DNA of 47,277 nt from Verrucomicrobiota bacterium (GTDB lineage: Bacteria; Verrucomicrobiota; Verrucomicrobiia; Chthoniobacterales; Terrimicrobiaceae): positions 1-47,277 of the forward strand of contig JAPLTG010000016.1 in NCBI GenBank assembly GCA_026398255.1, written 5' to 3'. Position 1 is the first letter of the stretch, and every line of letters begins with the position of its first letter. The translations under genes and the position numbers were made by a program. Under the pieces are notes generated by a model. It was not told the DNA's origin. It did not search any database and saw only the letters and a program-made list of their open reading frames with translations. This document shows positions 15,440 through 20,670 of the stretch, piece by piece.

Positions 15440-15718
15440 ATGATTCTCTCCTTTTCGGATAAAGACACTGAAGAACTTTTTCGCACGGAGAGTAATCGTC
15501 GTTTCTCGCAAATCTCAAGGGTCGCCACCCGCAAACTTACGGCGCTGGATGCCGCAGATCAGATCGAGGACATGGCGGTCCCGCCCGGCAACCGCCTTGA
15601 GCCTCTGCGCGGAAAGGGTGCTGGTTGGCACTCGATTCGGATCAACGACCAATGGAGGATTGTCTTTCAATGGACCGCCAATGGTCCTTCTGAGGTCGGC
15701 ATTGTGGACTACCATTGA
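15440..15718 (+). CDS. higB: HigB-type toxin of the RelE/ParE superfamily
   Basis: A 92-residue toxin-like protein ending in the family pattern GAGWHSIRINDQWRIVFQW...EVGIVDYH, as in HigB/PF05015 mRNA interferases that cut ribosome-bound mRNA. The N-terminal FSDKDTEELFRTESNRRF is also typical. It begins 9 bp after the purL stop and is followed by its antitoxin gene, toxin first, the usual order for higBA. All expected blocks are present, so it looks functional. Confidence 0.88.
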   Translation: MILSFSDKDTEELFRTESNRRFSQISRVATRKLTALDAADQIEDMAVPPGNRLEPLRGKGAGWHSIRINDQWRIVFQWTANGPSEVGIVDYH

Positions 15719-15725
15719 CACCAAT

Positions 15726-15739
15726 CTATAACGCTATAG
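15726..15739. promoter_or_regulatory. possible HigA operator in the higB-higA gap
   Basis: An inverted repeat CTATA (15726-15730) and TATAG (15735-15739) with a 4-bp spacer sits in the short gap before higA, in an AT-rich stretch. HigA proteins bind palindromes and repress their own operon, but operators normally lie upstream of higB, where I see no such palindrome. Low certainty. Confidence 0.35.
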
Positions 15740-15749
15740 GATATAAACC

Positions 15750-16046
15750 ATGAAGACAGCTATCACTCCCGGTGAAATTCTGCTCAAAGACTATCTCGTG
15801 CCCATGGGCATTTCCCAAAACGCGCTCGCACGAGCCCTTGGCATCAGTCCGCGAAGCATCAACGAAATCGTCCTAGGCCGCCGCAGCATTACACCGGAAA
15901 TGTCGCTTAAACTCGGCAAGTTTTTCAAACAAAGCGCCCAATTCTGGTTCAACATTCAAACCACCTGCGATTTCCGCCAATTGCTCAAAAAAGAAAAGCA
16001 AATCACTGCGACGGTAATCAAGGACTACACCGAGTTGGCGGCTTGA
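15750..16046 (+). CDS. higA: HigA-type antitoxin, XRE family
   Basis: A 98-residue antitoxin with the opening [25 protein letters not shown] and the [24 protein letters not shown], then [16 protein letters not shown], all standard for HigA (TIGR02607). It neutralises HigB and represses the operon. It lies 31 bp after higB. Its first 20 codons are echoed in two truncated copies at 18301 and 18612. Confidence 0.9.
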
Positions 16047-16052
16047 GACTTA

Positions 16053-17183
16053 ATGCCTAGAGGCAAAATAGTTGATGAAACTGGGAATATTTATGGAAAG
16101 CTTGTAGTTTTAAATCGCGGCCCAAATCAGCCCCAGAAGGAAGGCACCTCAAGAGCTCAATGGTGGTGCGAGTGCTCATGCAAACGAGCATGTGTTTTAG
16201 TTCTTGGCAAACAGCTTCGGGTCGGGAAAACCCGCAGTTGTGGCTGTATAAGAAAAGATTCAGCGAGACACAGAACGCGAATTAATTCTAGATTTTGCCA
16301 TACTAAAAATCAGGGGCGAAAAATGCAGGGCTCTATGCCAGATGAAGTTGGATCAGCATACGGAATGTTACATGTCCTAAAAAGGGGGCCCGATAAAATT
16401 TTCCCTTCTGGCGGTAGGCATGCAGCATGGTGGTGTAAATGTGAATGCGGCAACCCCAATCTTATACTTAAGACAGGTAATTGGTTAAGAAGAACAAAAA
16501 GCTCAAGGCACTGCGGGTGTCAGCATAAAAAAATTCGAGAAAAAGCTTATAACCAATCAAATTCCGTTAATCAAAGAATTGAAAAACACAAGAAAAAGCT
16601 CGCTATTTTCGGTAAGGCTGAACTATTTGGAGATTATTTAGGTGACCGAGTAAAAACAAAATACAGATGCTTGATACATGATCAGGTTCATTTTGGAATT
16701 CCTACAAACATGGGAAGAGGTAGGGGGTTGCCTTGCTGTAAAAGAGACATTGGTTGGGATAGTTTAGAAGCTGTAATTGACGGTTCATTTAGAGCTCCAA
16801 ATCAAACATGTTTGCTTTATTTATTTAAATTAAGTCGCTTCCCATCGCTAATAAAATTAGGTATCGCCAGCCATATTGACCGGCGTCCAGACGAAGAATA
16901 TGGGGACTTAATTAGAACTTGGACATTCAGCAATAGAGTAGATGCTGCTCTTGTTGAAATTTCTATAAAACAATACACTATAAAATATTCTGTAGTTCCA
17001 GATAATTTGATTAACTGGGCGGGAAGAACTGAGATAAGAAGAATCGATCCAAACATACTTGTAATACGTGTGCAATTATTGGCTGAGGAGTTATCAAAGT
17101 TAGGCAGGTGGAGGTTTGCCTTGAAATACATCTCGATGAGTAATAAACACCGATCAATGGTGGAGAATCTGATGCAAAATTAA
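16053..17183 (+). CDS. GIY-YIG nuclease-like protein with tandem zinc-ribbon repeats
   Basis: A 376-residue protein in visibly AT-rich DNA unlike its neighbours. Two repeats share a Y-G-x-L-x-V-L-x-R-G-P lead, WWC-x-C-x-C (39-43 and 128-132) and a closing CGC (63-65 and 154-156). A third zinc-binding-like segment holds YRCLIHD (Cys206) and CC (228-229). The C-terminal part matches the GIY-YIG layout: LYLF (255-258), IKLG (267-270), Arg277/278, Glu302 and a WAGRTE block (322-327). This combination occurs in phage and mobile-intron-type endonucleases, so it is probably a DNA endonuclease inserted next to higBA. It starts 6 bp after higA. The target is unknown. Confidence 0.68.
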   Translation: MPRGKIVDETGNIYGKLVVLNRGPNQPQKEGTSRAQWWCECSCKRACVLVLGKQLRVGKTRSCGCIRKDSARHRTRINSRFCHTKNQGRKMQGSMPDEVGSAYGMLHVLKRGPDKIFPSGGRHAAWWCKCECGNPNLILKTGNWLRRTKSSRHCGCQHKKIREKAYNQSNSVNQRIEKHKKKLAIFGKAELFGDYLGDRVKTKYRCLIHDQVHFGIPTNMGRGRGLPCCKRDIGWDSLEAVIDGSFRAPNQTCLLYLFKLSRFPSLIKLGIASHIDRRPDEEYGDLIRTWTFSNRVDAALVEISIKQYTIKYSVVPDNLINWAGRTEIRRIDPNILVIRVQLLAEELSKLGRWRFALKYISMSNKHRSMVENLMQN

Positions 17184-17607
17184 AGTCCACTAAGGCAATG
17201 CTTTGAAAAATTTTAGTTAACTCAAATTTAAAAATCATTCAGTTTAGCGGGGTTCAGCAGGTGTCTTATCGCCGGAAAATGAAAAGAAAAGGAGGGCCCG
17301 TCCCGCGTTTTATCGTATTTTTAGAAACACGAAAAGTTTCAACTGCAAAAACTCATTCCTGATAAGCGGATTTCATTTTTACTTACAAAACTTTCCCTAT
17401 TGCTTGTTTACTGGCTTGCCAAAACATCTATTGAGACGTGAAAAGACATCATTCCCACATATTAACATATTTTCAATATGCCAACGGGGACATTTGTGCT
17501 CCGGACGCAAAGCGAAGTCACATGAGCAGCTGGCTCCGCTTTTCCACTTTGCGAGTGCCGCTTGGAGGGCGGATGGGTAGCGGCTTCTTGACTTTGTTTC
17601 ATTTTAA
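17184..17607. other. AT-rich gene-free stretch in the island
   Basis: No gene is visible between the GIY-YIG-like gene and the toxin remnant. The first 280 bases are AT-rich like the nuclease gene, then the base composition returns toward the genome average near 17480. It holds copy C of the transposase-leader-like repeat (17449-17480). The shift in composition probably marks the edge of a separate insertion. Confidence 0.45.
17449..17480 (+). repeat. transposase-leader-like repeat, copy C (diverged)
   Basis: TCATTCCCACATATTAACAT followed by ATTTTCAATATG aligns with copies A and B through CCCACAtATT-ACATATTT-cAA, again with an ATG just after (17478-17480). It is more diverged and lacks the GGGG lead. 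It sits upstream of the broken toxin gene. Confidence 0.42.
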
Positions 17608-17971
17608 AGCAACATAGGCATCAAGCTTATCAACGAATTCTTCAAGTCTGCGGAAGGGAAATCCCCGGTAGCGGATTATCTGGATGAACTGGATGCCAAG
17701 CAAGGCGGCGAAGGTGCTTTGGACTCTCTCGGCGATCAAGCTGACTCACCCAGCGCCTTCCGTTTACCTGAAAAAGATGGTGGCAACGGACGATCTTTGG
17801 GAGGTGCGCGTGATCTTCGCCGGAAACATATTCCGCCTGCTGGGCTGGATGGAAGGCGCGGACAAATTGGTCTTGGCGCACGGCTTCACCAAAAAGACCG
17901 TGAAGACCCCGCTGCAGGAGATCCAAATAACCGAAACCCGAAAGAAAATTTATGAAGACAAAGAAACCTGA
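17608..17971 (+). pseudogene. frameshifted Gp49-like/RelE-family toxin
   Basis: Two frames together give a phage Gp49-like (PF05973) toxin. Frame one reads IKLINEFFKSAEGKSPVADYLDELDAKQ (split here: it ends near 17703), and the next frame continues AAKVLWTLSAIK...VATDDLWEVRVIFAGNIFRLLG...KKTVKTPLQEI to a TGA at 17969-17971. One extra G in the GG at 17704-17705 explains the shift. The first frame has a stop at 17605 and no start codon after it, so the N-terminus is lost as well. A shorter ORF from ATG 17684 would lack the N-terminal helix. It overlaps the antitoxin start by 20 bases, the usual toxin-antitoxin arrangement. Confidence 0.75.
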
Positions 17972-18242
17972 TGACTTGAACCGCTACATTGCGCAGCGAA
18001 AAGAGAAGGATGCGGATTTCTCCGCCGCCTACGACAGTGAGCAGGCAGAGTGGCAACTCGGCCAACTTCTGGCCAAGACCCGCGAGAGCGCAGGACTCAC
18101 GCAAGAGGCATTGGCCCGCAAAATAGGCTCCACGCGCAGCGCAATCTGCCGCTACGAGCGCCATCCGGCTAATCTCACACTCTCGACATTGGAAAAAGTC
18201 GCCCGCGCTACCGGGCGGCGCCTGGTCGTGAAATTTGCTTGA
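17952..18242 (+). CDS. XRE-family antitoxin of the broken Gp49-like toxin
   Basis: A 96-residue protein with the HTH LAKTRESAGLTQEALARKIGSTRSAICRYE and the tail TLSTLEKVARATGRRLVVKF, typical of HTH antitoxins paired with Gp49-like toxins. It appears intact although its toxin is frameshifted. The ATG at 17952 lies inside the toxin's last codons. It may persist as a regulator or as protection against related toxins. Confidence 0.8.
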   Translation: MKTKKPDDLNRYIAQRKEKDADFSAAYDSEQAEWQLGQLLAKTRESAGLTQEALARKIGSTRSAICRYERHPANLTLSTLEKVARATGRRLVVKFA

Positions 18243-18300
18243 GCGGTAAAATCACGACAACATTCATCAGCAACTGTCTCGACGCTGCAAAATTTTCCAA

Positions 18301-18381
18301 ATGAAACCCGCCATCACGCCCGGTGAAATTCTCCTCGAGGACTACACTGTTCCCAGCATACAAACCGCATTCAGCTTATGA
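18301..18381 (+). pseudogene. HigA N-terminal fragment, copy 1
   Basis: A 26-codon frame, [20 protein letters not shown] and six more residues, matches the first residues of HigA (compare 15750) and stops in the first HTH helix. Its TGA overlaps the ATG of the ribbon-helix-helix gene at 18378 (ATGA). It is either a relic or a small coupled leader peptide. The same arrangement is repeated at 18612. Confidence 0.65.
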
Positions 18382-18605
18382 GCACCCTGACAATCCGTCT
18401 TCCAGAAGACAAACACTCCCGCATCCGCCAACTTGCCAAGCACCGCGAGATGAGCGTCAACAAACTCTTTGAGGAACTCGCCACCATTAGCATCGCAGAG
18501 TTCGACGCGGAATCCCGATTCCGTGCGATGGCGGTGCGTGGTTCGACGAAAAAGGGCCTTGCTCTGCTGTCCAAGCTCGACGCAGCTTTTTCCGCTATGA
18601 AGTGA
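18378..18605 (+). CDS. ribbon-helix-helix (CopG/Arc-type) antitoxin-like protein
   Basis: A 75-residue protein beginning MSTLTIRLPEDKHSRIRQLA, the beta-strand and first helix of an RHH DNA-binding fold, then HREMSVNKLFEELA for the second helix and an acidic/basic tail. Such proteins are often antitoxins of PIN or RelE toxins, but no toxin gene follows. Its start overlaps the stop of a HigA N-terminal fragment, so it may use that fragment's ribosome-binding context. Confidence 0.72.
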   Translation: MSTLTIRLPEDKHSRIRQLAKHREMSVNKLFEELATISIAEFDAESRFRAMAVRGSTKKGLALLSKLDAAFSAMK

Positions 18606-18611
18606 GTCACC

Positions 18612-18689
18612 ATGAGCGAACTCAACCCCGGCGAAATTCTACTTGAGGACTACCTCATTCCCATCAACCAAACTGCATTGAGCCCATGA
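18612..18689 (+). pseudogene. HigA N-terminal fragment, copy 2
   Basis: A 25-codon frame, MSELNPGEILLEDYLIPINQ plus five residues, resembling copy 1 at 18301 and HigA itself. Its TGA overlaps the ATG at 18686 of a second, truncated ribbon-helix-helix frame, exactly as in copy 1. The 311-bp offset between the copies marks a tandem duplication. Confidence 0.65.
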
Positions 18690-18781
18690 GCGGCCTGACA
18701 ATCCGTCTTCCAGAAGGCAAACATCACCGCATCCGCCTGATGATCAAACGCACAGACATTATTGGGCTTATTTCGGCATAA
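18686..18781 (+). pseudogene. truncated ribbon-helix-helix protein, copy 2
   Basis: A 31-residue frame beginning MSGLTIRLPEGKHHRIRLM, nearly the same as the start of the RHH protein at 18378, then diverging to a stop at 18779-18781 before the second helix. It cannot form a complete RHH fold. A further 16-residue frame at 18803-18853 (MQTEKIRITRELLEEH) may be another relic. Confidence 0.65.
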
Positions 18782-18859
18782 TCAGGCATCTATTTCGGTA
18801 TCATGCAGACCGAAAAAATTCGAATCACACGGGAGTTGCTGGAGGAGCATTGAGCGAGA

Positions 18860-18949
18860 TCGCAGCTTGGGAAAATTTTATATCGACTTTATTTTGTCAT
18901 TTTCGTGATACATTATCTATTTTAGAGAATCACCAAGTATACAAAATTT
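18860..18949 (+). promoter_or_regulatory. AT-rich probable promoter region of hipB
   Basis: An AT-rich stretch directly before the HipB-like start. TTGTCA at 18894-18899 could be a -35 box, with TATCTA or TATTTT near 18914-18923 as the -10; the spacing (14 or 18) is not ideal. TATCGA...GTGATA half-sites around 18881-18910 could be an operator. Weak evidence. Confidence 0.3.
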
Positions 18950-19276
18950 ATGCCAACCCCTCATCATCCATCCGCCGCCGTGCGCAAAGCTCTCGGAAAG
19001 CTTGGGAGCGATCTGCGGGATGCCCGCCGCAGACGACGACTGCCGATGGCGGTGCTCGCCGACCGCGCTTTCACCTCCCGCGCCACCTTGCAACGAGTGG
19101 AGGCAGGCGCCCCCGCCGTGAGCATGGGCATCTACGCCGCTGTCATGCACTCGCTGGGCCTCTTGGATGGTCTCGGCCAGTTGGCTGATGCCTCCACAGA
19201 TTCCGTCGGTCAGGCGCTGGCCAATGAATTCTTGCCGCAGCGTGTTCGTCTCAAAAAAGCCAAGGAGCAACCGTGA
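18950..19276 (+). CDS. hipB: HipB-like XRE-family regulator/antitoxin
   Basis: A 108-residue HTH protein. LGSDLRDARRRRRLPMAVLADRA and FTSRATLQRVEAGAPAVSMGIYAAVMHSLGL form a HipB-type XRE domain, and the tail (QALANEFLPQRVRLKKAKEQP) is basic. The TGA overlaps the start region of a hipA remnant, the standard hipBA layout. With hipA truncated, it probably survives as a lone DNA-binding protein. Symbol by resemblance only. Confidence 0.72.
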   Translation: MPTPHHPSAAVRKALGKLGSDLRDARRRRRLPMAVLADRAFTSRATLQRVEAGAPAVSMGIYAAVMHSLGLLDGLGQLADASTDSVGQALANEFLPQRVRLKKAKEQP

Positions 19277-19428
19277 TGGATTTCGAGGTGCATCTTTCGC
19301 TTGATGCGGAAACACAGCGGATTGGTTCGGCGCGCAGCAATCGAGTCCGGGGCAAGGAAACCGTGGTTTTTGAATACTGGAGCTTCCTCCCAAGAGATTC
19401 ATCGAATGGCCAGCGCTTTCGAGCATGA
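19276..19428 (+). pseudogene. hipA: truncated HipA toxin, N-terminal domain only
   Basis: A 50-residue frame starting MDFEVHLSLDAETQRIGSAR and containing VVFEYWSFLPRD, the opening (Couple_hipA) segment of HipA kinases, where a strand, a G-x-L/A turn and an FEY motif are usual. Full HipA is about 420-440 residues; the kinase domain is absent here and the frame stops at 19426-19428. The following bases do not resume it in any frame I can recognise. Probably a deletion remnant. Confidence 0.65.
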
Positions 19429-19505
19429 TACTATTATTAAAGTATTTGTATTGCAGTTAATTGAAAAAACATTTCGACCTGAAGAACGACGCATCCGTGT
19501 AAGGA

Positions 19506-19523
19506 GCCAACGAGGACGTTGGC
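19506..19523. repeat. REP-like hairpin
   Basis: Perfect arms GCCAACG and CGTTGGC around an AGGA loop. The loop and arm style match the hairpin at 47098-47117 read on the opposite strand (AGGA between AACGGCAG and CTGCCGTT). It stands between the hipA remnant and the Fic gene. Confidence 0.5.
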
Positions 19524-19540
19524 GATCCTCGAAGGCCGCC

Positions 19541-19581
19541 GTAACGACAAAATTTTGATTTTTACGAATTATACTCGTTAC
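19541..19581. promoter_or_regulatory. possible operator upstream of the Fic gene
   Basis: Inverted arms GTAACGA (19541-19547) and TCGTTAC (19575-19581) enclose the palindrome CAAAATTTTG (19548-19557) and an ACGA/TCGT pair, in AT-rich DNA 44 bp before the Fic start. The Fic protein carries an N-terminal HTH, so autoregulation here is plausible. Inferred only. Confidence 0.4.
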
Positions 19582-19624
19582 AAAACGCGCTTCTGACCTT
19601 TAATCTCGTGACAAGCTCACATCC

Positions 19625-20608
19625 ATGCCGGGTAAACCTTTTCAATCCAAGCTAAAGCCTTACGAGTCCGAGCTGAGGGAAATTCTCGCTTCTGGTATCG
19701 GCTATCGTGGCGCGGCGCAGGAGATCAATCGACGGCATGGATTGAATGTGAGCCACAATGCGGTTTTTTCCTTTTTGAAAAACCGACCGGCACCGCGCGC
19801 TGAGCGAGGCCTTTTTTACGAAGGTCTTCCCTGCGATCTCCGCGATCAGCTTCTCAAGCGCCTCGCTGCCGAATGGACGCACGAATCGACAGCCATCGAG
19901 GGCAATACTCTGACTCTCGGCGAAACCGTCAAAATTCTGGAACTCGGCCTCACCATCGGAGGCAAGCCGCTCCGGGATCATCAGGAGGTTTACGGGCACG
20001 CTAGGGCGATCGACTTGATCTACGAAATGGTCGGCCGCGCGCTCACTCGGGAGGATCTTTTCGCTCTTCACAGGGCCGTGATGCCGCTTTCTGCGTTGGA
20101 TTCACTCCATCCCGTGGGCGACTGGAAAAAAGATTTCAACGGAACCACGGGCGTGGTGGACGGCAAGAGCGTTTACATGGAATACGCAGCCCCAGCCGAT
20201 GTGTCGCGATTGATGGATCGCTGGCTGACCGATTTCAACAAAACACGCACGATCAATCGCCCCGCACAGGCCGTTGCCGTCTATGTCCGGACGCATATGG
20301 TTTTCGTTCGCATCCATCCCTTCTTCGATGGCAACGGCCGCATGGCTCGGCTGATTGCCAATCTCCCGGTTCTGGCCGCAGGCTTTCCACCGATCCTCGT
20401 GCCGATGTCACGCCGTGGCGACTACATCGACCTCCTCTGGCGCTACCAAAACGCTGTCGGCCGCATCGGTCGCGGAAGTCATCTGCTGCCAACCCACCCT
20501 GCCCTTCGCGAGTTGGAATCCCTGCTTTTGGAGGGATGGAAAAAATCGACATCCCTCGTCGAAGAAGCCCGCCAACTCGCCACACAGCGCCGATCATTGA
20601 CTTCATGA
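19625..20608 (+). CDS. Fic-family AMP-transferase-like protein with N-terminal HTH, class II
   Basis: A 327-residue protein. Residues 1-55 form an HTH-like segment (SGIGYRGAAQEINRRHG, then NVSHNAVFSFLKNRP). STAIEGN (88-94) matches the inhibitory (S/T)xxxE(G/N) motif in N-terminal position (class II). The catalytic loop is HPFFDGNGRMAR (231-242), matching HxFx(D/E)GNGRxxR fully, so AMP transfer to a protein hydroxyl is expected. A C-terminal helical part follows. No separate antitoxin is adjacent; the inhibition helix is built in. It ends the toxin-antitoxin island. Confidence 0.9.
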   Translation: MPGKPFQSKLKPYESELREILASGIGYRGAAQEINRRHGLNVSHNAVFSFLKNRPAPRAERGLFYEGLPCDLRDQLLKRLAAEWTHESTAIEGNTLTLGETVKILELGLTIGGKPLRDHQEVYGHARAIDLIYEMVGRALTREDLFALHRAVMPLSALDSLHPVGDWKKDFNGTTGVVDGKSVYMEYAAPADVSRLMDRWLTDFNKTRTINRPAQAVAVYVRTHMVFVRIHPFFDGNGRMARLIANLPVLAAGFPPILVPMSRRGDYIDLLWRYQNAVGRIGRGSHLLPTHPALRELESLLLEGWKKSTSLVEEARQLATQRRSLTS

Positions 20609-20670
20609 ACGACAGCCAGCTCCGAACTCCAGGCGTGACAGAGGGGCGGGGTAAATAAAAAATCCGCGCC

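Follow-up and report, generated by a model that had tools for sequence, protein, structure and literature searches.

The two short leader frames that precede ribbon-helix-helix (RHH)-type starts in the window, by which we mean the whole 47,277-nucleotide stretch of DNA that was analyzed, are very probably a deletion scar in a toxin-antitoxin (TA) cluster that is decaying toxin first. Read against intact relatives, each leader is a higA start joined to the last codons of a PIN toxin gene and left by deletion. The features concerned are the following:

18301..18381, forward strand: leader 1, chimeric ORF of 26 aa, higA head to about 18355/6, then PIN toxin tail to the TGA at 18381 (basis: 44/45 nt of higA in G011, the PIN tail of G007 and G003, and a best split at nt 55-56)
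18378..18605, forward strand: RHH copy 1, complete, 75 aa, 99% amino acid identity to G007, where PIN precedes RHH
18612..18689, forward strand: leader 2, chimeric ORF of 25 aa (MSELNPGEILLEDYLIPINQTALSP), higA2 head to about 18663/4, then PIN tail (basis: 49/53 nt against higA2 of G007, and a split at nt 52-53)
18686..18781, forward strand: RHH copy 2, a fragment whose homology stops near 18737, with unrelated codons after that point

Composition of the leader frames

The ORFs confirmed the two leaders of 25 to 26 codons that a sequence-only reading had placed 311 bp apart, each with a TGA that overlaps an RHH-type start as ATGA; the leader starts are separated by 311 nt, the RHH starts lie at 18378 and 18686, and leader 1 is in frame up to the TGA that overlaps RHH copy 1. 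Together, the leader-RHH units form a direct repeat of 116 nt that is 81% identical. The same reading had the HigA match ending in the first helix of the helix-turn-helix (HTH), which did not hold: the higA homology ends after about 55 nt in leader 1 and 52 nt in leader 2 (codon 18), and the final 21 to 22 nt before the RHH ATG are in both leaders the 3' end of the PIN toxin gene, i.e., its last 7 codons and stop. The leader tails IQTAFSL and NQTALSP are thus the C-terminal end of PIN, which reads ...QFSQTTFSL in G007 and ...QFSQTAFKL in G003. The tail (NQTAL/IQTAF) was also considered as the HigA segment SQNALA with a small deletion, and this was rejected, since the PIN tail fits better, is contiguous with RHH in relatives, and requires no further event.

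In the profile search no family match was found for leader 1, and leader 2 scored 14.6 bits over 20 residues against TIGR02607, below the cut-off of 47.7. The HTH is missing from both leaders, so that the HigA-type DNA-binding regulation that had been proposed for them cannot come from the leader. In addition, the Shine-Dalgarno-like GAGGGG before higA2 of G007 reads GAGTCA before leader 2.

The PIN-RHH module of relatives

RHH copy 1 gave weak matches to RHH_1, HicB, and DUF6290. A protein search of 58 related genomes identified its close orthologs as the antitoxins of PIN-RHH modules, in G007 (99% amino acid identity) and G003 (95%) within the genus and in G024 (76%) within the family, and in all three a PIN toxin gene lies directly upstream with its stop overlapping the RHH ATG as ATGA. 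The overlap is present at the PIN-RHH junctions of loci L081 (G007), L082 (G003), and L089 and in G024, and of nine PIN-RHH loci in a set of 84,980 genomes, three carry it while the others have a 4-nt gap. Because several PIN-RHH pairs of relatives share it, the ATGA overlap is native to the PIN-RHH operon and was not captured with the higA start. The idea of a captured leader therefore stands in part: a HigA start does now precede RHH in an overlap capable of coupling, but the overlap itself belongs to the module.

The PIN protein exceeds the cut-offs of both TIGR00305 and PF13470 (PIN_3). In place of a PIN gene upstream of RHH, the window keeps just the last 7 PIN codons; other PIN genes of the same genome are at most 38% identical. 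A palindrome, TGAtaGCatAtaTGCTATCa (also given as TGATAGCATATATGCTATCA and TGATAGCATATGTGCTATCA), is found with variation immediately before PIN in nine relatives and is likely the operator of the RHH antitoxin. With up to 5 mismatches allowed, the window contains no copy of TGATAGCATATATGCTATCA, and the module promoter is likewise gone. The nine palindrome-bearing PIN loci come from Verrucomicrobiota and Planctomycetota, and the palindrome is preceded by a TTGAC-like box (L081 2128-2150; in L082-L089 immediately before the PIN start).

Both starts named in the sequence-only reading are of RHH type, but RHH is whole in copy 1 only. With its frame intact and PIN deleted, RHH copy 1 is now the orphan antitoxin of the deleted toxin. 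It differs from G007 by one non-synonymous and four synonymous changes (dN/dS about 0.07), a difference that may mostly predate the join; the sole amino acid change, A53V, is private to the window, with Ala in 9/9 relatives. RHH copy 2 retains about 17 RHH codons (82% identity over 74 nt to G007), and five of its six changes within 51 nt are non-synonymous and one synonymous, a pattern as expected of decay.

A Shine-Dalgarno sequence is absent before RHH in the window and in 8/9 relatives, which makes coupling to the upstream frame a reasonable native mechanism that the chimera would preserve. Together with the overlapping ATGA, this absence is the geometry relevant to translational coupling. 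If RHH copy 1 is still made, ribosomes would thus begin at the former higA start codon and re-initiate at the ATGA; there is a small chance that such residual, coupled and still useful expression of the orphan RHH from the chimeric leader occurs.

History of the join

The two higA heads have different closest relatives. The higA half of leader 1 differs at 1 of 45 nt from intact higA (higA1) in contig C96 of G011, and the 58 nt upstream differ at a single position; higA1 of C96 follows the same Gp49/HTH pair that precedes leader 1 in the window. The head of leader 2 agrees at 49 of 53 nt with the higA gene directly after RHH in G007 (higA2). Window positions 18361-18664 are 95.7% identical to G007 over 304 nt, and these close matches to G011, in the higA half and the upstream DNA, and to G007 exclude chance for both halves.

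The gene order in G007, next to purL, is higA1, an opposite-strand gene pair, PIN, RHH, and higA2, and purL likewise precedes the TA cluster in the window. By comparison with this order, the window appears to have lost the higA body and nearly all of PIN, and probably the opposite-strand pair too. That pair of small genes lies between higA and PIN or Fic (L130 4016-4761; L017 1528-2090, reverse-complement coordinates), matches no Pfam or NCBIfam family, and may be a TA pair that has not been described before. The second higA of G007 is itself cut short, its frame continuing into the C-terminal portion of an apparent RND-type transporter (L017 2833-3501, reverse-complement coordinates). The stretch from purL to a cobW-like gene (window 15440-20670) is not conserved between the congeners examined, a site of varying TA gene content, and the RHH DNA is 96% identical to G007 in comparison to 80% for purL, which suggests transfer.

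To locate the breakpoint, every split of each leader into a higA head and a PIN tail was scored. The best splits fell at nt 55-56 for leader 1 and nt 52-53 for leader 2, leaving 21 to 22 nt of PIN in both, and since the higA2 head is one codon shorter in the alignment, the breakpoints are equivalent, nucleotide for nucleotide, on the higA side and on the PIN side. Such identical breakpoints are most simply explained by one join that was copied afterwards, and this history is in all likelihood the correct one, in agreement with the earlier suggestion that the join preceded the duplication, which is probably right. Two independent deletions between separate higA and PIN genes are an unlikely alternative. 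In their favor, the heads derive from different higA genes, and the two joins differ in their small blocks. On a rough uniform estimate, however, the chance that a second join would land within 3 nt of the first on both sides is less than 1 in 1,000, and the breakpoint has no strong repeat that could force the coincidence, the longest word common to both parents near the join being 7 nt and not located at the breakpoint.

In the proposed single-join history, a deletion would have removed higA from codon 18 through PIN to its last 7 codons, including the PIN promoter and the conserved palindrome, leaving an in-frame ORF of higA head and PIN tail whose stop still overlaps the RHH start. We infer that the second unit, with a different head and the same join, arose after the join by unequal exchange, in which the joined higA1 head recombined with the higA2 head following RHH. 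This would account for the different heads of the two leaders; no intermediate of this exchange was found. The second unit would then have decayed, with RHH copy 1 surviving as an orphan antitoxin. Some observations count against the deletion scar: leader 1 contains a 4-nt block (CTCA to ACTG) and, at the join, about 5 nt that have no counterpart in either parent, the repeat to be expected at the join is short (the 7-nt word, which is not at the breakpoint), and RHH copy 1 is well kept, which is also compatible with continued selection.

We also searched the phylum, relative, and class genome sets, which overlap one another, for the join. With a degenerate pattern, the join of higA head and RHH start was found in no other genome among 388 genomes of the phylum, 384 genomes of the class, and viral contigs, nor in 97 relatives including 15 congeners, so that the part of its own refutation test that concerned other genomes went against the sequence-only reading. 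When all 16 genomes of the genus were searched at the DNA level, the separate parts alone were found outside the window, a plasmid search with the leader-RHH unit gave no match, and in the literature nothing specific to this exact leader-RHH arrangement was found.

Probable toxin-first decay in the cluster, and known systems

The neighboring genes, all on the forward strand, are as follows:

15440..15718, forward strand: HigB-like toxin gene, open (PF05015, E 5e-19), first in the TA cluster downstream of purL
15750..16046, forward strand: complete higA antitoxin gene (TIGR02607, 96.4 bits, cut-off 47.7)
17622..17971, forward strand: Gp49/RelE-type toxin gene, broken (PF05973; alignment with G011 C96)
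17952..18242, forward strand: HTH antitoxin partner, open, 96 aa (PF01381/PF13560)
18950..19276, forward strand: HipB-like HTH gene, open, 108 aa (HTH_31; couple_hipB below cut-off)
19273..19558, forward strand: HipA-like remnant, a head of about 36 codons and, in another frame, a tail of about 25 codons, with the middle deleted
19625..20608, forward strand: Fic-family gene (PF02661), the right-hand neighbor, also downstream of higA1 in G011

Relative to the intact gene of G011, the Gp49 toxin gene has lost its start codon and carries a 1-nt insertion near 17704, and its HTH partner compares to G011 with a dN of 0.023 and a dS of 0.077. The head of the HipA-like remnant is 83-86% identical to frames of 422-431 aa in G012 and G001, and the tail, ASSQEIHRMASAFEHD, was identified by comparison with the G012 protein; an internal deletion of about 350 codons joins the two. 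Both neighboring toxins, Gp49 and HipA-like, are thus broken and their HTH partners open, a pattern that, as judged from the reading frames, is toxin-first decay with antitoxin frames kept; the exception is the HigB/HigA pair at 15440-16046, in which both genes are open. To the right, window positions 19494-19905 are 89% identical to G011 C96. A palindrome, GCCAACGAGGACGTTGGC, lies at 19506-19524; the stretch around it resembles a REP element and has further matches near higA in G007 and at two places in G011, and a REP-type transposase-like ORF is nearby in G007.

The leader had earlier been taken as possibly more than simple debris, a view that the broken toxins and the decayed second copy do not favor. 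That the chimeric leader was kept by selection, with the higA start taking the place of the toxin start and driving coupled translation of RHH as a toxin-free anti-addiction cassette, is rather improbable. The in-frame passage of leader 1 to the overlapping TGA speaks for such selection, but a frame is kept by chance in 1 of 3 cases; the higA upstream DNA (57/58 conserved with G011), the intact RHH with no Shine-Dalgarno of its own, and the low dN/dS against G007 are also in its favor, but that comparison may for the most part reflect changes older than the join, and A53V occurs in the window alone. Orphan antitoxins have already been proposed as anti-addiction modules (PMC7354431), but here the PIN operator is missing, only a decayed second copy is left, and the join is absent from every other genome sampled. 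That the cassette works at present, the HigA start peptide driving termination-reinitiation of the orphan RHH antitoxin and thereby silencing incoming PIN-RHH modules, is more doubtful still; if true, its RHH would bind the operators of such modules and neutralize their toxin. An assembly artefact of the metagenome bin is highly improbable as the source of the join: TA clusters are repetitive, and in the nearest relatives, G013 and G015, the contigs break off in this region, but no shared repeat contains the breakpoint, the join is present in two copies that have different heads and are 19% divergent, and the contig continues through unique flanks.

The deletion scar is of use in several respects. 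Intact relatives on both sides show how a TA cluster sheds toxins and retains antitoxin frames, a small in-frame ORF left behind by a deletion can resemble a designed regulatory leader, and the PIN-RHH module of Verrucomicrobiota is now clearly described, with the toxin first, overlapping genes, and a conserved promoter palindrome. Beyond these points it is ordinary genome decay, a well-resolved scar that is ordinary in kind.

In comparison with known systems, the window shares with the PIN-RHH modules of Verrucomicrobiota (TIGR00305, PF13470 PIN_3) the RHH gene, the ATGA overlap, and the last 7 PIN codons, but lacks their toxin body, promoter, and operator and has a higA start in their place. 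Toxin-first gene order is unusual but known, e.g., in higBA and hicAB (PMC3920265). With the HigA family (TIGR02607), both leaders share the first 18 codons, and leader 1 also the upstream DNA, but without the HTH a leader cannot be a HigA protein. There is also a likeness to orphan antitoxins, which a review that also cites the decay of ccdO157 (PMC7354431) interprets either as what is left of degraded TA systems or as modules of anti-addiction; in these, as in the window, the toxin is lost or broken and the antitoxin frame kept, whereas the scar in the window is a higA/PIN chimera duplicated in tandem.
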